Shown piece by piece: positions 30,264-39,315 of a DNA stretch of 64,000 nt (position 1 is the stretch's first letter; each line of letters opens with the position of its first letter). Below the pieces are notes generated by a model, which saw nothing but the letters and a program-made list of their open reading frames with translations, made no database searches and was not told the origin of the DNA. The position numbers and the translations under genes are program-made. The stretch is from Dactylosporangium sp. AC04546 (GTDB taxonomy: Bacteria > Actinomycetota > Actinomycetes > Mycobacteriales > Micromonosporaceae): positions 53,377 through 117,376 of the forward strand of contig NZ_JAHYSG010000029.1 in NCBI RefSeq assembly GCF_022095675.1, written 5' to 3'.

Positions 30264-32147
30264 ATGCACGGACGGCTTGCGGCGTGGCTGGTACGGCTCA
30301 GTCCGCCGCCATTCGCGGTAGGGGTCGCGGTCGGCTTTGGGTTCGTCGCCGTGGAGACCCTGTTGGTCTACCCGTTGCGTCAGATCGCTCCCATCGGAGC
30401 GCTGGCCATCGTCTACCTGCCCGGCGTGCTCGTCGTCGCCACGGTGTGGGGCTTGTGGCTGGGCGTCGCGACGTCGATCGCCAGCGCGGTCGCGTTCGAC
30501 TTCTTCCACACCCCGCCGTTCTGGCGCTTCGAGACGGAGGACTGGCGGGACTGGCTCGGGCTCTCGGTGTACCTCATGGTCGCCGGGATCGCCAGCTCCC
30601 TGGCGCAACTGGCCCGCGCGCGGGCGGCCGAGACCATCGAACGGCGCCGGGAGACCGACGCGGTCGCCGAGCTGACCCAGCTCATCCTCGGCGCCGACAA
30701 CGTCCGGGCGGTACTTCCCGACGTCTCCGACCGGATCGCCCATGCCATGCGGCTGCCGTACGCGGCGATCGAGCTCGACGCGGTCCCGCCCCGTGAGGAC
30801 CAGATCCAGCTGCCGCTGCGGCCCGGCGCGCTCGTCGTGCCCGCCGACCTGCCGGACCGCGTCGTGGAACGGCTGCGGGACGGGGTCGTGCCCGGGTTGG
30901 CGACCGTGTTGCGGGCCGGCAGCTCGCTGCAGGCCAGCCGGACCGAACTGGAGGCGCTCCTCACACAACAGGCAGCGCTGCGGCGGGTGGCGGAGCTCGT
31001 GGCCCGCGGCGTCGCGCCCGCCGAACTCACCGCCGCGGTCGCCGCCGAGGCCGCCGAGCTGTTCGACGCGGACTCCACACAGGTACAGCGCCGGGAGGAT
31101 GCCAGCACCGTGACCGTCGTCGCCGAGTACCGCAGGAACCCGCAAACCGAGCCGAGGCTGGGCAGGCGGCTCGACACCGCCGGCGGCGTCGCGTCGCTGG
31201 TGCTGCGCGAATCCCGCCCGGCCCGGCTGGACTCGTACGAGGACAGCGTCGGCACGCTCGCCGACCTCGCCCGCGCCGCGGGCATCCACGCCTCCGCCGG
31301 CGCGCCGATCATCGTCGACGGCCAGGTCTGGGGCGTTCTCGTCGCCCTGTGGAGCCGGCCCGTCGCGCTGCCACCCGGCACCGAGCACGAGCTTGCCCGG
31401 TTCACCGGACTCGTCGCGACCGCGATCGGCAACTCCGAGAGCCGTGCGGAGCTCACCGCGTCACGCGCCCGGCTCGTCTTCGCCGCGGACGAAGCCCGCC
31501 GCGGCATCGAACGCGACCTGCACGACAGCGTGCAGCAACGACTCATCTCGCTCGGGCTCGAACTCCGCTTCGCCGAGGCGCTGGTGCCCAAGGAGCTCGG
31601 CGAGGTACGGTCCCGGCTGCTGGACACCGCCGCCGGACTGTCCGGCGCCTTCGACGACCTCCAGCGGATCGTCCGCGGGATCCATCCGGCGCTGCTCTCC
31701 CAGGGCGGGCTGGGCTCCGCGATCAAGGCGCTCGCCCGCCGCTGCCCGGTGCCGGTGGCGGTCCACTCCTGGCCGAACCATCGCCTGCCCGGCTACGTCG
31801 AGGTCGCCGCCTACTACGTGGTCACCGAGGCGCTCGCCAACTCGGCCAAGCACGCCAACGCCTCGATCATCGACGTGGAACTCGACATCCTCGCCGACGG
31901 ACCGGGCTCGGACGGATCGTCGCAGGGCGAGGTCCTCAGCGTGACCGTCCGCGACGACGGCGGTGGTGGCGCGGACCTGCGTCAGGGCACCGGCCTGGCC
32001 GCCGTGCGCGACCGCGTCGAGGCACTCGGCGGCACGCTGTCGCTGACCAGCCCGGCCGGCCGCGGCACCTCCCTCAGCGTGCAACTGCCGCTGGACGTCC
32101 AAGACCGGCAGGCCGCGGAGGCCTACTGGTCGTTCGGTGGGACGTGA
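30264..32147 (+). CDS. sensor histidine kinase, DUF4118-GAF-HisKA_3-HATPase
   Basis: 627 residues. N-terminal membrane unit of about four helices (residues ~15-115, KdpD-like DUF4118) with a coiled-coil exit; a GAF domain at about 270-400; HisKA_3 block IERDLHDSVQQRLISLGLELR with phospho-accepting His420; and a HATPase domain (TEALANSAKHANAS, VRDDGGGGADLRQGTGLAAVRDRVEALGG). This is the NarL-type kinase class that pairs with LuxR-type response regulators. No response regulator lies in the window, so it is an orphan. Its stimulus may relate to the preceding chromate genes only by position. Confidence 0.9.
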   Translation: MHGRLAAWLVRLSPPPFAVGVAVGFGFVAVETLLVYPLRQIAPIGALAIVYLPGVLVVATVWGLWLGVATSIASAVAFDFFHTPPFWRFETEDWRDWLGLSVYLMVAGIASSLAQLARARAAETIERRRETDAVAELTQLILGADNVRAVLPDVSDRIAHAMRLPYAAIELDAVPPREDQIQLPLRPGALVVPADLPDRVVERLRDGVVPGLATVLRAGSSLQASRTELEALLTQQAALRRVAELVARGVAPAELTAAVAAEAAELFDADSTQVQRREDASTVTVVAEYRRNPQTEPRLGRRLDTAGGVASLVLRESRPARLDSYEDSVGTLADLARAAGIHASAGAPIIVDGQVWGVLVALWSRPVALPPGTEHELARFTGLVATAIGNSESRAELTASRARLVFAADEARRGIERDLHDSVQQRLISLGLELRFAEALVPKELGEVRSRLLDTAAGLSGAFDDLQRIVRGIHPALLSQGGLGSAIKALARRCPVPVAVHSWPNHRLPGYVEVAAYYVVTEALANSAKHANASIIDVELDILADGPGSDGSSQGEVLSVTVRDDGGGGADLRQGTGLAAVRDRVEALGGTLSLTSPAGRGTSLSVQLPLDVQDRQAAEAYWSFGGT

Positions 32148-32245: not shown

Positions 32246-33151
32246 ATGCGACGCCTTGCCGTCCTCGCCACCTTGTCCGTCACCACACTCCTGCTCGTCC
32301 ATCCGGCCAGCGCCTCGGCCGAGGGCATCATCTCCTCGCTGTCGGTCTCCCCCTCCACGGTCCGCGACGGTGCGTCCGCACAGGGAACCGTGACGCTGCT
32401 CCCCGACGCGACCCCCACGACGGTGCTGCTCTTCAGCAGCGACCCGTCGGTCGCCACGGTGCCGTCCTCCGTCGTCGCACCGGCCGGCCAGAGCACCGTC
32501 TCGTTCACGATCACCACGAACGCCGCCGCCCCGCCGACCATCGTGCAGATCACCGCCGCCGTCCAGAACATTCCGCGTACGGCCAACCTCTCGGTGAACG
32601 CGGCGACCCCGCCGGGCCCGTCACTGTCGTCGGTGTCCGTCAGCCCGTCCAGTCTCACCGGCGGCAGCCCGGCGACCGGGACGGTCACCTTCACCGGCGC
32701 CACGGACGGGGCGGTCGTGCAGTTGTCGAGCAGCGACCCGACCCTCGTCCAGGTCCCGTCGGAGACGGTCGTGAGCGGCGGGGCCTCGAGCGGCGCGTTC
32801 GCCGTGACCACGTCCGCGGTCGCCGCCACCACGACGGTCACCATCACCGCCAGGTGGTTCGCCGTCACCCGGACGACGACGATCACCCTCACCCCCGGCA
32901 CGCCGGCGCCCGCGGACCGGGTGGCCATCACGAAGGCCAGATGGAAGGCGCGGCTGCTCACGATCGAGGCGACGAGCACGAACCCGAACGCGATCCTGTC
33001 CGTCTACTCGCAGTCGGGCGCCTTCATGTTCACCCTGACCAACAAGGGCGGCGGCCGCTACGCCGACCAGCGCGGCTGGGTCTTCAACCCACAGGTCGTC
33101 ACGGTCCGCAGCAACCTCGGAGGCTCGGCAACGGCGACCCTCACCAGCTAG
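32246..33151 (+). CDS. secreted protein with two Ig-like beta-sandwich repeats
   Basis: A 301-residue precursor; AGGGAGG precedes the ATG at 32246. Signal peptide MRRLAVLATLSVTTLLLVHP..., cleavage near SASA-EGI. Two homologous ~90-residue repeats begin ISSLSVSPSTVRDGASAQGTVTL and LSSVSVSPSSLTGGSPATGTVTF, each with SSDPxxxxVPS and a final TVTI-type strand. A ~65-residue C-terminal domain, ITKARWKARLLTIEATSTNPNA, follows. Such repeats usually mediate surface or carbohydrate contacts; no catalytic motif is seen. Its stop overlaps the stop of the convergent gene at CTAG. Confidence 0.75.
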   Translation: MRRLAVLATLSVTTLLLVHPASASAEGIISSLSVSPSTVRDGASAQGTVTLLPDATPTTVLLFSSDPSVATVPSSVVAPAGQSTVSFTITTNAAAPPTIVQITAAVQNIPRTANLSVNAATPPGPSLSSVSVSPSSLTGGSPATGTVTFTGATDGAVVQLSSSDPTLVQVPSETVVSGGASSGAFAVTTSAVAATTTVTITARWFAVTRTTTITLTPGTPAPADRVAITKARWKARLLTIEATSTNPNAILSVYSQSGAFMFTLTNKGGGRYADQRGWVFNPQVVTVRSNLGGSATATLTS

Positions 33152-35670
33152 TCACGCACTGACGCTCGGGAGCGTCGGGTGAGACGTCGTCCCACGGCGG
33201 CGAGCTGGCGCTCCGTGCGGGTGGCGATCGCCGCGAACGCGATGCCGACGGCGAGCGACGCGACGAGCGCGAGATGGCGGGAGACGTCGTCGAAGCGGGG
33301 GAACACCTGCCAGTGGGCGAGGTAGATGTACAGCGAGCTGCTGGCGAGGATTCCGGCCACCCGGTTGATCGAGGCCAGGCTGGGCACCGTCGGCACCCAG
33401 ACGAGCAGGACGAGCCCGGCGGCGACGAGCGCCTCGCGTTGCGGGTCGCCGAAGAAGCCGGGCACGGTGGCCAGCGTGGCAGCGGTCACGAGGAGCCGCT
33501 GCCACGTGGTCGTGGCTTTGGCGGCGGCCCAGCCGAGGGCGAAGAGCCAGAACACGACGAGGGCCGGTGGGACCTTGCCGTGTGCCGCGAGGTTCGGCAG
33601 GTCGTAGCGGGTGACGAGGCCGGCCGCCATGAGCAGCATGGGCGTGGCGAACGGGAAGCGCCGTTCGGTGCGGTCGACGGCTGGGATGCTCGTCAGGGCG
33701 AGCATCGCCAGCAGGATGTACACGATGGCCTCGACAAACCAGAAGTGCCAGTCGGCGCTGGCGGGCCGCTGCCCGACGATGCTGCTGAGCAGGGCGATGT
33801 TCGCGGGTGCGTAGTCGGCGGTGAGCAGCACGGCGAGCGCGATCCACGCCATGCTCGGCACGGCGATGCGGGCGACGCTGCCGCCGAGGTGCCGGGCACG
33901 GAGTCGCCGTGCGGCGGAGGTGAGGGTGAAGCGGGCGAAGTTGTAGCCGGCGACCGCGAGCAGCAGGTGAGCGCCGCCCTTGATCATGAAGACGGGGATG
34001 TGCGAGCCGACGATGAGGACGATCGCGATGGCCCGCAGGGCGACGGTCGTGTCGAGCTTGCGCCACCGGGACGCGGGCCGCGGTGCCGGCCCGGTCAGGT
34101 CGCGGGTCAGCTCGCGGATCGGCAGGGTGTGCCAGTCGGCGGGCAGGGTGCCGAGGGCCTGTTCGAGCCGGATCGACATCTCGACGTACGACAGCGAGTC
34201 ACCGCCCAGCCGTACGAAGCTGTCGTCCGGTGTCACGCCGGGGTGGTCGAGGATCTCGGCGTAGAGCTGGCAGAGGTCGGCCCGGGCGGGTGCCGGCCGG
34301 GCGCCGGCGAGGTCCCCTACGGCATTGCCCAGGGCCTGGTAGTCGGGTTTGCCGTTGGGCAGCCTCGGCAGCTCGGCGAGGCGGTGGACGCGGACGGCGC
34401 GCGCCGGGAGCCCGCAGTGGCGTGCGACGAGCCGCCGGACCCTGGCCTCGCCGGCGGTCGTGGCGACGACAAGCTCGCTGTCGTCGCCCCGGCAGAGCGC
34501 CGCGATGCCGTCCTGGGCGAGCAGGTGCTCGACGCGGTGCGGGTCGATGCGCAGGCCGAAGATCTTGACGAACCCGCTGCGCCGCCCGACGATCTCGTAG
34601 AGTCCGCTGGTCGTGCACCGGGCGACGTCGCCGGTGCGCAGCTCGTCGACGGTGCGCCCGAGCGCGAGGTCGGCGGGGCTGCCGGCATAGCCGAGCATGA
34701 CGTTCGGGCCGCAGTACACGAGCTCGCCGGTGTCGCTGCCGGGCTGGTCGGGGACCGGGTCGAGGCGGAACGCGCCGCCGGGGACCGGCACCCCGATCGC
34801 CGCCGGGTGCGCTTCGGCCAGGTCGGGGGGCAGGTACGCCATTCTTGCCGTGGCCTCGGTCTGCCCGTACATGACGAAGAACTTCCAGCCGCGCCGCCGG
34901 CCGGTGGCCGCGTAGTGGGCGACGCGTTCGGGTGCGAGCCGGCCGCCGGCCTGGGTCACGTATCTCAGGCCCGGCAGGCTCATCCCGGCGAACCCGACCC
35001 GGTCGAGCAGGTCGAAGGTGTACGGGACCCCGGCGAGGCTCGTGCCCCGGCCGGTGCGGAACAGCTCCCAGAAGCCGGGGTCGGTGACGGACCGGTCCGT
35101 CAGGATCAGGCCGGCGCCCCGCAGCAGGTGGCTGTTGACGACCGAGAGGCCGTAGCAGTAGTGCATCGGCAGGGCGGTCGGTGCCCGGTCGGATTGGCGG
35201 ATGTCGAGGTACTCGGCGATCGACTCGGCGTTGGCCTGGAGGTTCTCGTGCGAGAGCCGCACCAGCTTGGGTGAGCCGGTCGAGCCGGACGTACTGAGCA
35301 GCAGCGCGAGGTCGGGGTGCAGGTCGTGGGCCGACGTGGTGTGCCGGATCTCCAGGTGCCCGCCGCCGCGCGCGATCACATCGGGCTCGTACGCGTCGAT
35401 GAGCGCATCGGCGTGTTCGGCCGGGACCAGCAGGACCGGGTGGCCGCCCGCCAGCGCGGCGAGGTAGGTCACCAGCGAGTCGAGGCTGTTGGCGCAGGCC
35501 AGGAGCACAAGCCGCCGCCGCTCGCCGAGCCGCCGGGCCATCGCCGCGACCTGCTCGGCCAGCGCGACGTAGGACAGCTCACCATCGGCGGTGATGACTG
35601 CCGTCCGGTCGCCGTGGACCGCGAGCCGGCTGGCGAAGGGGACGGTGCGGGTATCGAGGGGCACGGGCAT
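33148..35670 (-). CDS. adenylation-carrier-membrane acyltransferase fusion protein
   Basis: 840 residues with three parts. (1) Adenylation domain, 1-450: A3 LLLSTSGSTGSPK (124-136), A5 MYGQTEATARM, A7 ELRTGDVA, A8 VGRRSGFVKIFGLRIDPHR, A10 PNGKPDY with Lys441. (2) Carrier domain, ~465-530, with phosphopantetheine serine in LGGDSLS (Ser492). (3) Acyltransferase-3 membrane domain, ~540-825, with about ten hydrophobic segments and the R-x10-H motif (Arg546, His557). It could activate an acid, load it on its own carrier and pass it to an acceptor at the membrane, like DltA-DltC-DltB in one chain. Iron boxes upstream and the divergent iron transporter suggest an iron-limitation role. Substrate unknown. 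Confidence 0.9.
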   Translation of the reverse strand: MPVPLDTRTVPFASRLAVHGDRTAVITADGELSYVALAEQVAAMARRLGERRRLVLLACANSLDSLVTYLAALAGGHPVLLVPAEHADALIDAYEPDVIARGGGHLEIRHTTSAHDLHPDLALLLSTSGSTGSPKLVRLSHENLQANAESIAEYLDIRQSDRAPTALPMHYCYGLSVVNSHLLRGAGLILTDRSVTDPGFWELFRTGRGTSLAGVPYTFDLLDRVGFAGMSLPGLRYVTQAGGRLAPERVAHYAATGRRRGWKFFVMYGQTEATARMAYLPPDLAEAHPAAIGVPVPGGAFRLDPVPDQPGSDTGELVYCGPNVMLGYAGSPADLALGRTVDELRTGDVARCTTSGLYEIVGRRSGFVKIFGLRIDPHRVEHLLAQDGIAALCRGDDSELVVATTAGEARVRRLVARHCGLPARAVRVHRLAELPRLPNGKPDYQALGNAVGDLAGARPAPARADLCQLYAEILDHPGVTPDDSFVRLGGDSLSYVEMSIRLEQALGTLPADWHTLPIRELTRDLTGPAPRPASRWRKLDTTVALRAIAIVLIVGSHIPVFMIKGGAHLLLAVAGYNFARFTLTSAARRLRARHLGGSVARIAVPSMAWIALAVLLTADYAPANIALLSSIVGQRPASADWHFWFVEAIVYILLAMLALTSIPAVDRTERRFPFATPMLLMAAGLVTRYDLPNLAAHGKVPPALVVFWLFALGWAAAKATTTWQRLLVTAATLATVPGFFGDPQREALVAAGLVLLVWVPTVPSLASINRVAGILASSSLYIYLAHWQVFPRFDDVSRHLALVASLAVGIAFAAIATRTERQLAAVGRRLTRRSRASVRD

Positions 35671-35685: not shown

Positions 35686-35704
35686 TAAGGTTACCCTAAC
35701 CAGA
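35686..35704. promoter_or_regulatory. putative IdeR/DtxR iron box 1
   Basis: TAAGGTTACCCTAACCAGA matches 14 of 19 positions of the TTAGGTTAGGCTAACCTAA consensus. It sits just upstream of the -10 box of the fusion gene. Confidence 0.65.
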
Positions 35705-35727: not shown

Positions 35728-35746
35728 TAAGGTAAGCCTCTCCTAT
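35728..35746. promoter_or_regulatory. putative IdeR/DtxR iron box 2
   Basis: TAAGGTAAGCCTCTCCTAT matches 13 of 19 positions of the iron-box consensus, covering the TAAGGT -10 candidate and the ATG of the iron-binding protein gene. With box 1 (42 bp away, four turns) it suggests joint iron repression of both divergent units. Confidence 0.6.
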
Positions 35747-36782
35747 GAATCTGCGCCGTGTCGTGTCCGGGTGTCTTGCCGTCACCGTTGTGGTCGGGTT
35801 GTCCGCCTGCGGCGGCTCGGACCAGGCCGCGAACGTCGCCGGCGACAAGAAGATCACCGTGTACAGCGGCCGAAGCGAAACGCTGGTCAAGCCGCTGCTG
35901 GAGAAGTTCCAGCAGCAGACCGGGATCACAGTGCAGGTGCGCTACGGCACCTCGGCGCAGATGGCCGCCCAACTGGCGGAGGAGGGCGAGCGCAGCCCGG
36001 CCGACCTGTTCTTCTCCCAGGACGCCGGTGCGCTCGGTGCGGTCGCCAAGGCCGGTGACCTCGCGGCGCTGCCCACCGAGGTGCTCGGCAAGGTGCCGGA
36101 GGTGTACCGCTCCCGCGCCGGACTGTGGGTCGGGGTCAGCGGGCGCTCGCGCGTGCTGGTCTACAACACCGAGTTGGTGCCCACCGCCGAGCTGCCCACG
36201 TCGGTCTTCGAGCTCGCCGACCCGGCCTGGAAGGGCAAGATCGGGGTGGCGCCCACCAACGGTTCGTTCCAGTCGTTCGTCACCGCGCTGCGGGTCCAGC
36301 ACGGCGACACGAAGGCCAAGCAGTTCCTCACCCAGCTGAAGGCCAACGACCCGGCGACCCGCGACGGCAACGTCCAGATCGTGGCCGACGTCGACGCGGG
36401 CAAGCTCGCGGTCGGTCTGGTCAACCACTACTACGTGTACGAGCTGGCCAAAGAGCAGGGCACCGCGCCGGACAAGCTCAAGGCCCGGCTGCACTTCTTC
36501 CCGGACGGCGACACCGGCGCACTGGTCAACGTGGCCGGCGTCGGCGTGCTCAAGCGCTCCGCCACCGACCCGGACACCCGGGCGTTCGTGGACTACCTGC
36601 TCGGCACCGAGGGACAGGCGTACTTCGCCGAGCAGACGTACGAGTACCCGCTGATCGCCGGGGTGGCCGCTCCGGCCGGCCTGCCCGCACTGGGCTCGCT
36701 CGCCGCGCCCCGCATCGACCTCAACGACCTCGACACCCTCGACGCGACCATCGCGATGATCAAAGAGGCGGGGCTCGCCTGA
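35745..36782 (+). CDS. ferric iron ABC transporter substrate-binding lipoprotein
   Basis: 345 residues with a lipoprotein signal (MNLRRVVSGCLAVTVVVGLSACGG, lipid on the Cys of LSAC). The mature part is a FbpA/FutA-class class II binding protein: ITVYSGRSETLVKPLLEKFQQQTGITVQVRYG, ADLFFSQDAGALGAV, and the ligand Tyr pair in GLVNHYYVYEL, which with another Tyr holds Fe3+ directly. No clear ribosome site; start is fixed by the signal peptide. First gene of an ABC operon, divergent from the fusion protein, with an iron box over its start. Confidence 0.92.
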   Translation: MNLRRVVSGCLAVTVVVGLSACGGSDQAANVAGDKKITVYSGRSETLVKPLLEKFQQQTGITVQVRYGTSAQMAAQLAEEGERSPADLFFSQDAGALGAVAKAGDLAALPTEVLGKVPEVYRSRAGLWVGVSGRSRVLVYNTELVPTAELPTSVFELADPAWKGKIGVAPTNGSFQSFVTALRVQHGDTKAKQFLTQLKANDPATRDGNVQIVADVDAGKLAVGLVNHYYVYELAKEQGTAPDKLKARLHFFPDGDTGALVNVAGVGVLKRSATDPDTRAFVDYLLGTEGQAYFAEQTYEYPLIAGVAAPAGLPALGSLAAPRIDLNDLDTLDATIAMIKEAGLA

Positions 36783-36796
36783 ACACGCCAAGGCCC

Positions 36797-38293
36797 ATGC
36801 TGCTCGCCGCGTCGACGGCGGCGGTCGGCGTGGCCATGCTGCCGCTGGTCTACCTCGCCGTGCGCACCGGCGAGGCGGGCTGGCCACGGATCGCCGACGA
36901 GGTGTTCACCTCACGGGTCGCCGTGCTCGCCGGGCGCAGCCTCGCGCTGGCCGCCGTGGTGACCATTGCGTGCGTCGTCGTCGGCGTCGGCGTGGCGTTC
37001 CTGCTCGTCCGCACCGACCTGCCCGGCCGCAGGGTGTTCGGCGTGCTCGCCGCGCTGCCGCTCGCGGTGCCCACCTACGTCGCGGGCTTCGCCTGGGTGT
37101 CCACCGTGGATGACTTCGAGGGGTTCTGGCCCGCCGCGCTGGTGCTCACGCTCTGCTCGTACCCCTACGTGCTGCTGCCGGTGACGGCGGCGCTCGCCGG
37201 CGCGGACCCGGCGCAGGAGGAGGTGGCCCGGTCGCTCGGGCGCGGCCAGTGGCGCACGTTCACCAGCGTCACGCTGCATCAGGTACGCCCCGCCGTCACG
37301 GCCGGTGGACTGCTGGTCGCGCTCTACGTGCTCTCCGACTTCGGGGCGGTGTCGATCGTGCGGCTCGACACGTTCACCCGGGCCATCTTCACCGCGTTCA
37401 ACCTCGGCTTCGACCGCACCGGCGCGCTCGTGCTGTCCAACGTCCTGGTGGTGCTCACCGCGCTGATCATCGCCGGCGAGCTGGCCACCAGGGCACGAGG
37501 CGCCCGGTACTCCCGATCCGGCGGCGCGGGCCGCCCGCCCACGCGGCTGCGGCTGCGCGCGGCGCGCTGGCCCGCGACGCTCGCCCTCTGCGGCGTCGCC
37601 GTCCTGGCCCTCGGCGTCCCCGCGGCCAGCCTCGTGCGCTGGCTCGCCGCAGGCGTCTCGCGACCCGGCCCATGGGGCGAGCTGGTGGTCGCGGCGGGCA
37701 ACTCGCTGCTCGTCTCGCTCGCCGGGGCGGCACTCACGATGCTGCTCGGGCTCCCGGTCGGGCTGCTCACCGCCCGGGCGCCCGGGCCCCTCGCGACGCT
37801 GCTGGACCGGTTGACCTACGCCACGCACGCCCTGCCCGGCGTGGTCATCGGGCTCTCACTGGTGTTCTTCGGGATCAACGTGGCGTACTCGCTCTACCAG
37901 ACCGTGTGGCTGCTCGCGCTCGCCTATGCGGCGCTGTTCCTGCCCCTCGCGGTCGGCGCGGTGGCGGGTGCGGCCCTGCAGAGCCCGCCGTCGCTGGAGG
38001 AGGTCGCCCGCTCGCTGGGGCGCGGCCCGTTCGCGGTGCTGCGCACCGTCACCCTGCCGCTCACGCTGCCCGGGATCGGGGCCGGCGCCGCGCTGGTGTT
38101 CCTCACCTGCGTCAAGGAGCTGCCCGCCACCCTGCTGCTACGACCGACCGGTATGGACACCCTCGCCACCGAACTGTGGACGCACACCTCCACCGCCGCG
38201 TACGCCGCCGCCGCACCCTATGCCGCGCTGCTCGTCGTCGTCGCCGCCGTTCCCACCTGGCTGCTCGCCACGCGCACCGGACTGGCGACGTGA
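36797..38293 (+). CDS. ferric iron ABC transporter permease (two-domain)
   Basis: 498 residues, about twelve membrane helices, in the FbpB/ThiP arrangement with two permease domains. Both EAA loops are visible: EEVARSLGRGQWRTFTSVTL and EEVARSLGRGPFAVLRTVTLPLTLPGIG. The ATG at 36797 is used (AAGG shortly upstream); the frame stays open into the binding-protein gene but has no better start. 14 bp after the binding-protein stop, and its stop overlaps the ATPase start (TGATG). Confidence 0.92.
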   Translation: MLLAASTAAVGVAMLPLVYLAVRTGEAGWPRIADEVFTSRVAVLAGRSLALAAVVTIACVVVGVGVAFLLVRTDLPGRRVFGVLAALPLAVPTYVAGFAWVSTVDDFEGFWPAALVLTLCSYPYVLLPVTAALAGADPAQEEVARSLGRGQWRTFTSVTLHQVRPAVTAGGLLVALYVLSDFGAVSIVRLDTFTRAIFTAFNLGFDRTGALVLSNVLVVLTALIIAGELATRARGARYSRSGGAGRPPTRLRLRAARWPATLALCGVAVLALGVPAASLVRWLAAGVSRPGPWGELVVAAGNSLLVSLAGAALTMLLGLPVGLLTARAPGPLATLLDRLTYATHALPGVVIGLSLVFFGINVAYSLYQTVWLLALAYAALFLPLAVGAVAGAALQSPPSLEEVARSLGRGPFAVLRTVTLPLTLPGIGAGAALVFLTCVKELPATLLLRPTGMDTLATELWTHTSTAAYAAAAPYAALLVVVAAVPTWLLATRTGLAT

Positions 38294-39315
38294 TGCTGAG
38301 CGTCACCGGACTGCGCAAGGTGTACGGCAGAGTGCCGGCAGTGGACGGCGTCGACCTCGACGTTCCCGCCGGCACCCTCACCGCGGTGCTCGGCCCCTCC
38401 GGCTGCGGCAAGACCACGCTGCTGCGGTGCGTCGCCGGGTTCGAACGCGTCGACGCCGGCGCGATCACCCTGGCCGGTCGCCCGATCACCGGCGTCCCCG
38501 CGCACCGGCGCCGGATCGCCGTCGTACCACAGGAAGGCGCGCTGTTCCCGCACCTGTCCGTCGCCGGCAACGTCGGTTACGGCCTCGACCGGGCCGAGCG
38601 CCGTTCCGGGCGGGTCGAAGAGGTCCTCGCGCTGGTCGGCCTGGACGGCTACGGCGCCCGCATGCCGCACCAGCTCTCCGGTGGCCAGCAACAACGCGTC
38701 GCCGTCGCCCGTGCCCTCGCCCCGCGCCCGCCCCTCGTGCTGCTCGACGAGCCGTTCAGCGCGCTCGACGCCGCGCTGCGCACCGAACTGCGCCGCGACG
38801 TCCGGCAGGCCCTGCACGCCGACGGGGCGACCGCCGTCCTGGTCACCCACGACCAGGCCGAAGCCCTGTCGATCGCCGACCAGGTCGCGGTCATGAACGC
38901 CGGCCGCATCGAACAGTCCGGGCCACCCACCACCGTGTACCAGCAGCCGGCGAACCCGTGGGTCGCCACCTTCGTCGGCGAGGCCGTCCTGCTCCCCGGC
39001 ACCACGCACGGCGCAACGGTCGAGACCGCGCTCGGCCGGCTACCGCTGCAGAACCCCGCCGCAGACCCGGCCCGGCGCACCACGACGGTACTCGTCCGGC
39101 CGGAGCAGATCGACCTGCACACCGACGGATCGGGCGTCACGGCAACGGTGCTCCGCCACGACTTCCACGGCCACGACGCACTGGTGGCGCTGCGGCTGCA
39201 CGACGGTACCGAAGTCTCCGCCCGGGTCAACAACGGCGCCGGCGCCCTGGGCGTCGGCCGGCAGGTCGGTGTCGCGGTGCGCGGCACGGCCCGCGCCTTC
39301 GACCCGGCCACGTAG
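38293..39315 (+). CDS. ferric iron ABC transporter ATP-binding protein
   Basis: 340 residues: Walker A GPSGCGKTT, Q-loop VVPQEGALFPHLSV, signature QLSGGQQQR, Walker B LVLLDEPFSALD, H-loop VLVTHDQAEAL. A C-terminal TOBE-like domain follows (TTVLVRPEQIDLHTDGSG, GTEVSARVNNG), as in FbpC-type ATPases. Overlaps the permease by 1 nt on TGATG, so the transporter genes form one operon. Confidence 0.93.
   Translation: MLSVTGLRKVYGRVPAVDGVDLDVPAGTLTAVLGPSGCGKTTLLRCVAGFERVDAGAITLAGRPITGVPAHRRRIAVVPQEGALFPHLSVAGNVGYGLDRAERRSGRVEEVLALVGLDGYGARMPHQLSGGQQQRVAVARALAPRPPLVLLDEPFSALDAALRTELRRDVRQALHADGATAVLVTHDQAEALSIADQVAVMNAGRIEQSGPPTTVYQQPANPWVATFVGEAVLLPGTTHGATVETALGRLPLQNPAADPARRTTTVLVRPEQIDLHTDGSGVTATVLRHDFHGHDALVALRLHDGTEVSARVNNGAGALGVGRQVGVAVRGTARAFDPAT

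Follow-up and report, generated by a model that had tools for sequence, protein, structure and literature searches.

The 64,000-nucleotide stretch of Dactylosporangium sp. AC04546 DNA analysed here (the window, from contig NZ_JAHYSG010000029.1) carries a gene whose 840-residue product joins an adenylation domain, a carrier domain and an acyltransferase-3 (AT3) membrane domain in a single chain, and which we name ATA. The gene (33148..35670, minus strand, ATG start), delimited by its open reading frame and Pfam domains, lies divergent to the genes of an FbpABC-type transporter. On balance, we consider it likely from sequence comparison that ATA, as a self-contained enzyme repressed by iron, transfers acyl groups across the membrane and acts as a dedicated accessory of actinobacterial FbpABC ferric uptake.

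The binding protein, permease and ATPase of this transporter run divergently from ATA between 35745 and 39315 on the plus strand. They comprise an FbpA-type ferric-binding lipoprotein (35745..36782; identified by Pfam, alignment and structure matches), an FbpB-type permease (36779..38293, its start approximate; PF00528) and an FbpC-type ATPase with a TOBE domain (38293..39315; PF00005 and PF08402). When compared with solved structures, the binding protein best matches ferric-binding FbpA/HitA (7w3w, E 9e-86), and the tyrosine pair of the iron site, Tyr229 and Tyr230, is invariant in all 53 of the FbpA homologues found adjacent to ATA; for these reasons the transporter is taken to be an FbpABC-type ferric importer. 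Its best NCBIfam label, an aminoethylphosphonate binder, falls far below the cut-off (58.8 against 310 bits). Two sites resembling the 19-bp iron box of DtxR/IdeR/DmdR repressors are located between ATA and these genes, in the gap of 74 bases and at the beginning of the gene for the binding protein. Scored against the consensus, box 1 (TAAGGTTACCCTAACCAGA, 35686..35704, no strand assigned) agrees at 15/19 positions, and box 2 (TAAGGTAAGCCTCTCCTAT, 35728..35746, likewise unstranded), which overlaps the binding-protein start codon, at 14/19. No other site in the window reaches 14/19, ten first-order Markov windows each gave 0 such sites, and AGGTTANNNTAACC occurs once against 0.00 expected. The structure matches and the two box-like sites thus bear out the original prediction of a divergent ferric-iron transporter with iron boxes in between.

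Whether such boxes accompany ATA elsewhere was examined in 77 distinct actinobacterial loci. These were assembled from 65 neighbourhoods besides the window's own and 26 of 32 from an earlier set (six weak ones, L035-L040, being unused), from which 7 duplicates were removed and 8 non-actinobacterial loci set aside before the window was added; named hosts include Phytohabitans flavus (L016), Kocuria rosea (L014), Nocardia yamanashiensis (L018), Nocardioides jiangsuensis (L012) and Sinomonas gamaensis (L023). We set the threshold at 13/19 after inspecting the score distributions; 72 of 3000 random 380-base pieces of the loci reach it. Of the 77 loci, 55 have a box at this threshold in the 350 bases upstream of ATA, and 14 more have it upstream of an FbpA gene heading a same-strand run into ATA, an operon judged by order and strand, so that a box is placed to act on ATA in 69/77. 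When 300 permuted palindromes were scored instead, the mean number of loci with a hit upstream of ATA was 1.2, with a maximum of 36/77 and a next highest of 15. Together with the Markov windows and the expected count, the permuted palindromes led us to reject chance as the origin of the boxes. Taking box conservation as the basis, ATA would be iron-repressed by a DtxR/IdeR-type regulator (DmdR in Streptomyces). The best score in the 8 non-actinobacterial loci is 12/19, below threshold, as would be expected if another regulator rules there.

The association with FbpA extends to whole genomes. In a class-wide sample of 394 genomes, including the window's own, ATA (called at E ≤ 1e-100) is found in 66, and FbpA (called genome-wide at E ≤ 1e-25) is present in all 66 as against 52 of the 328 others (Fisher p 9e-43, without phylogenetic correction). 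FbpA lies nearby, that is, within ~10 kb on each side of ATA or a shorter span where the contig ends (as in L009 and L137, for example), in 53/77 loci and in five arrangements: same-strand upstream (18), divergent (13), convergent (11), same-strand downstream (8) and split (3). With "none near" counted as a sixth state, a FastTree built from 76 of these 77 proteins requires no fewer than 21 changes of arrangement; 11 of its 73 inner branches have support below 80. In the 24 loci with no FbpA nearby, the gene is present elsewhere in the genome in every case (24/24, compared with 6/40 hand-chosen ATA-negative genomes); six of these distant FbpA proteins are weaker matches (E 1e-38 to 1e-42) that keep the tyrosine pair, and an adjoining permease and an adjoining ATPase were each matched at 23/24. 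ATA has kept a box of its own in 21 of the 24, which places it under putative iron control by itself; of the distant FbpA genes, 22/24 are boxed too. Within genera the two sets can coincide exactly, with ATA and FbpA in the same 5 of at least 39 sampled genomes of genus g28 and in the same 10 of at least 14 of genus g48. No sampled ATA genome lacks FbpA and FbpA is found without ATA, which suggests that the product of ATA serves the importer and not the reverse. The actinobacterial homologues are therefore not scattered without an iron link, the outcome that would have told against the original prediction, and the link it proposed is supported in Actinobacteria by box, by neighbourhood and by genome.

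Other window genes used as controls, namely a histidine kinase, a chromate-type transporter, two oxidoreductases, a metallo-beta-lactamase and DAO, each recur in at most 1 of 91 loci; a FadD control is uninformative because the query matches ATA itself. No further partner emerged when open reading frames from 84 loci were clustered: ATA and three clusters taken by eye as Fbp genes or frames overlying them rank first, followed by SDR proteins (14 loci) and a cluster of binding proteins (10 loci), with all others in at most 9. The 24 loci without nearby FbpA likewise showed no common partner among 20 neighbours run on Pfam (picked from gene lists, 90 proteins in one), which include four GT4 glycosyltransferases, one MFS protein and one phosphopantetheinyl transferase. 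GT4 glycosyltransferase genes were seen near ATA in L009, L012, L032 and L142 by Pfam and in L100 through a cluster spanning 6 loci; a member of this cluster looks MshA-like by eye, and it is probably a lineage-specific neighbour.

The one-chain architecture of adenylation, carrier and acyltransferase domains, as first proposed, is confirmed by three Pfam domains, AMP-binding (PF00501, E 4.7e-39), PP-binding (PF00550, E 1.2e-7) and Acyl_transf_3 (PF01757, E 2.9e-10; 40.1 bits against a gathering score of 31), all exceeding their cut-offs, and by the invariance of its key residues. All three domains lie on the minus strand. The adenylation (ANL) domain covers residues ~1-450 (34321..35670; Pfam and alignment, with estimated outer limits) and contains motif A3, STSGSTGSPK, at residue 126 and the A10 lysine at 441. 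The carrier domain covers residues ~465-525 (34096..34278; Pfam 465-508, with an estimated end) and contains a GGDSL motif whose serine, Ser492, is encoded at 34195-34197. The AT3 domain covers residues ~540-820 (33211..34053; Pfam 544-814, alignment and hydropathy), and its R-x10-H motif at 546-557 is encoded at 34033-34035 (Arg546) and 34000-34002 (His557). Ser492, Arg546 and His557 are invariant in all 76 actinobacterial rows of an alignment that, like the tree, leaves out L136, in its 4 full-length proteobacterial rows and in a wider 50-row alignment, so that the carrier serine and R-x10-H motif on which the original prediction depended are kept throughout. Among the best 120 of 7989 homologues, for which every named source organism is an actinobacterium, the carrier motif is found by regular expression in 117, and precomputed annotation gives all three domains to 96, no carrier label to 20 and no AT3 label to 4. 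Two members with no AT3 label, P0085 and P0112, keep the R-x10-H motif, so a missing label need not mean a missing domain. The closest homologue among the matches listed is from Dactylosporangium sp. NPDC000555 (87% identical). In its own genome ATA is the only full-length match; the next relative is a ligase of the adenylation type, with 42% identity across residues 54-468.

Past residue 540, 14 above-threshold hydropathy fragments were merged by eye into ~10 segments. Basic loops follow the second, fourth and tenth of these, as judged by hydropathy and charge only, which would place the adenylation-carrier half in the cytosol. AT3 is the sole domain that Pfam finds in the membrane half, with no MBOAT. 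Arg591 and Arg601 are nearly invariant in the family, in uncertain register to the RxxR published for the third transmembrane segment of AT3 proteins. In L131 (8308-8700) a phosphopantetheinyl transferase gene lies directly 3′ of ATA on the same strand, an observation that we count towards the role proposed for ATA. In L164 (8795-11771), from a family sampled around Defluviimonas, an ATA-like protein is encoded as two adjoining genes, AMP-binding and AT3, with no carrier domain detected by Pfam in the AMP-binding protein; it is as if the ATA domains were able to function as separate chains.

The position that is Asp (Asp235) in the pocket of amino-acid-activating adenylation domains, mapped by hand through an LgrA alignment and GrsA numbering, is Cys172 in ATA. 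Across 50 aligned members this position is Cys in 28, Ser in 20 and Val in 2, and in none is it Asp. An acid without an alpha-amino group is the likelier donor because the amino-recognising Asp is absent throughout, and ATA probably activates a carboxylic acid other than an alpha-amino acid. Activation of an amino acid, one of the two substrates first suggested, is accordingly disfavoured, and the statement that all adenylation core motifs are present stands for A3 and A10 but not for the pocket Asp. Measured against an adenylation-carrier module of nonribosomal peptide synthetases (NRPS), ATA has the AMP-binding domain and the serine-bearing carrier and lacks the Asp for the alpha-amine. Arg276 is invariant (50/50) and could bind a second carboxylate if it lines the pocket; we draw no substrate from it.

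From these features a working cycle can be proposed. Low iron would free the boxes of a DtxR/IdeR-type repressor (DmdR in Streptomyces), so that ATA and FbpABC would be co-produced. The cytosolic adenylation domain would activate a carboxylic acid, probably not an alpha-amino one to judge from its motifs, and the acyl group would pass to a phosphopantetheine arm on the conserved Ser492. Inserted into the AT3 pore by the carrier, the arm may then stand in for acyl-CoA, a plausible substitution because the phosphopantetheine arms of carrier and CoA are the same. By analogy with the AT3 family, the Arg546/His557 site would transfer the acyl group to an external acceptor. The resulting acylated product, whether released from the cell or retained in its envelope, might finally bind Fe(III) or present it to FbpA, as the strict co-occurrence would lead one to expect. 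A more specific version of this reading can be held only tentatively, being possible but short of likely: ATA and FbpABC would form a two-part iron acquisition system, in which a ligand made by ATA, either a one-enzyme siderophore or an envelope-anchored trap, feeds the Fe(III) importer.

Several observations weigh against a dedicated role in ferric uptake. Proteins of the FbpA type usually bind Fe(III) that is bare or held by an anion, and do not bind siderophores. The co-occurrence counts ignore phylogeny, and where the ATA and FbpA genes adjoin they can spread together. In 52 genomes there is FbpA but no ATA, some of them in genera having both (two in g3, one in g46, two in g73, one in g36 and one in g96), and FbpABC therefore does not need ATA. 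FbpA genes in ATA-negative genomes are boxed as well (5 of the 6 looked at). In 8 of the 77 loci (L096, L101, L105, L108, L111, L112, L127 and L137) no box of at least 13/19 is able to drive ATA: the only box in L096 and L105 cannot do so because it is sited after ATA, ahead of an FbpA gene further downstream, and the remaining six have none. Lastly, the iron link is not general among distant homologues. Proteobacterial ATA homologues, searched at E ≤ 1e-80, are rare (4/385 genomes in a class-wide sample, 12/295 in one family and 1/61 in one order), and an iron-type neighbourhood was found in only one of 19 such loci with TonB-receptor, PepSY and Fbp queries, some stretches spanning 5-6 kb; ten neighbours in L024-L027 and ten proteins from six other loci were run on Pfam. 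The locus concerned (L024, 6035-12586), in a Kiloniellaceae metagenome genome, has a TonB-dependent receptor gene and a PepSY_TM gene followed by the ATA-type gene. As the other 18 show no iron-type genes by these queries, the iron role may belong to the actinobacterial branch.

The main rival, which we regard as unlikely, is that ATA remodels the envelope by acylating a lipid, glycan or wall polymer as an adaptation to low iron, in the manner of AimS, an AT3 protein of Acinetobacter induced by metal starvation, without itself capturing iron. Characterised AT3 enzymes do mostly acylate surface carbohydrates, but envelope remodelling does not predict that ATA should occur only with FbpA (66/66 against 52/328, and 24/24 when the genes are not adjacent). 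Rather less probable again is a part for ATA in making or tailoring a conventional siderophore, for instance by acylating desferrioxamine. The placement of the iron boxes would suit this, as would the TonB receptor and PepSY_TM genes that precede ATA in L024, and a synthetase of the NRPS-independent siderophore (NIS) type, PF04183, is found in 37/66 genomes with ATA against 118/328 others (odds ratio 2.3, p 0.0035, without phylogenetic correction). The same count, however, leaves 29 of the 66 ATA genomes with no such synthetase, which weakens the case, although one is present in the genome of the window; among neighbours that are only partly annotated, no family of siderophore biosynthesis recurs next to ATA, and the partner transporter is of the ferric-ion FbpA type. 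A dedicated NIS pathway, with an IucA/IucC-type synthetase in every ATA genome, is at odds with the same 29/66.

Two further explanations would account for the pairing itself. ATA could be a maturation enzyme that acylates its partner lipoprotein FbpA, which we judge improbable: this would explain why no sampled ATA genome is without FbpA, and a lipobox-like motif, by a lax pattern, is present in 51 of 53 adjacent FbpA proteins, but FbpA proteins from genomes lacking ATA bear the motif as well (6/6), and ahead of Tyr40 the ATA-linked FbpA proteins have no column with 95% conservation. Least credible, and to our minds very improbable indeed, is that ATA and FbpABC have no function in common and that the iron link reflects hitch-hiking on a mobile unit of the two. 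Genus g28, in which the two genes share the same 5 genomes and the same divergent arrangement, is what such a unit would produce; the five arrangements and at least 21 changes between them speak against it, as do the persistence of FbpA in 24/24 genomes where the genes are separate and the box at ATA in 21 of those 24. An iron-repressed accessory of FbpABC uptake thus remains our preferred reading of ATA.

Some other genes lie apart from this system. Adenylation-only relatives of ATA stand with LuxE (acyl-protein synthetase) and LuxC (acyl reductase) in L143 (6863-11320), L033 (9887-13760) and L034 (9228-13670), with an SDR gene in the row in L034 and L143; L143 belongs to the window's own genome, on contig C18. 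On the window's own contig, ~23 kb before the window (G000:C29:5431-30251), long frames contain several NRPS-type adenylation matches, and an AT3 gene is located at C29:40202-41233. Within the window, 30264-32147 encodes a sensor histidine kinase with DUF4118 and GAF domains.

To our knowledge, how Fe(III)-binding FbpA-type importers are supplied in Gram-positive bacteria is poorly understood. ATA is iron-boxed and, among the sampled genomes, confined to those with such an importer, and it offers a direct handle on how they are fed. If the proposed mechanism is correct, a carrier-tethered phosphopantetheine arm replaces acyl-CoA in the AT3 pore, a mechanism that can be addressed with one purified protein, and if the two-part reading is also correct, a ligand-making enzyme serves a ferric-ion transporter thought to need no siderophore. 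Through ATA, a new small iron ligand or a new surface modification may also come to light, one that cluster-mining rules designed around larger pathways could overlook.

Comparison with characterised systems places ATA nearest to several families without matching any one of them. Members of the AT3/TmAT superfamily (OafB, OatA and HGSNAT) share a ten-transmembrane AT3 domain that carries acyl groups across the membrane (PMC12423673; PMC9558356). In the model set out there, acyl-CoA reaches an outside acceptor through a pore (PMC12423673), and it is in this use of acyl-CoA that the superfamily would differ from ATA. The main text of a 2022 review of AT3 proteins contains the terms "AMP-binding", "adenylation", "acyl carrier" and "iron" 0 times (PMC9558356), and the fusions it names are to SGNH and alanine-racemase domains (PMC9558356). 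The closest iron-linked AT3 protein found, described in a preprint, is AimS of Acinetobacter baumannii, which resembles the proposed ATA in being induced by iron starvation and needed for fitness under it, but which is an AT3 protein alone and acts independently of cellular metal content (PMC13345540). The desJGH genes and DmdR1 regulon of Streptomyces coelicolor offer a parallel in that DmdR-type iron boxes exposed a new iron-linked enzyme locus; the enzymes are different, DesG being an amidase and DesH an acetyltransferase, and the section on the DmdR1 regulon names no ATA-like gene (PMC12161575). FbpABC/HitABC ferric uptake is of the same kind as the partner transporter, and a literature search found no acyltransferase partner for it. 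The same search, which left most subscription papers outside it, found no description of the ATA architecture or of its pairing with FbpABC, in keeping with the original prediction, which knew of no described pathway of this form.

The shared logic is clearest in systems that load an activated acid onto a carrier. DltA, DltC, DltB and DltD carry out the D-alanylation of teichoic acid and, as proposed for ATA, activate an acid by adenylation, load it onto a carrier and transfer the acyl group at the membrane to an acceptor on the outside. The analogy to Dlt drawn in the original prediction holds for this sequence of steps and not for the transferase: Dlt consists of separate proteins, DltB is an MBOAT where ATA has AT3, and the substrate is D-alanine, recognised by an Asp that ATA lacks, so that the pocket speaks against D-alanine as the substrate of ATA; we know of no iron link for Dlt. 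AlmE, AlmF and AlmG, responsible for lipid A glycylation in Vibrio, likewise use adenylation, a carrier and a transferase to modify an envelope molecule, but as three proteins, with glycine and a transferase of another family. The epsilon-poly-L-lysine synthetase Pls of Streptomyces has the one-protein order of adenylation, carrier and membrane parts, and differs in its lysine polymer, its condensation-like domains and its lack of AT3. Aas, the acyl-ACP synthetase/2-acylglycerophosphoethanolamine acyltransferase, also joins acid activation to acyl transfer at the membrane in one chain, though with a PlsC-type transferase, no fused carrier and no known iron link; PRK08043, PRK06814 and PRK08633 are among the NCBIfam matches of the ATA adenylation domain, all far below cut-off. 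The role proposed for ATA-FbpABC was nowhere found described; the carrier-fed transmembrane acyl transfer proposed for ATA follows a known logic, to which Dlt, Alm and Aas come closest.

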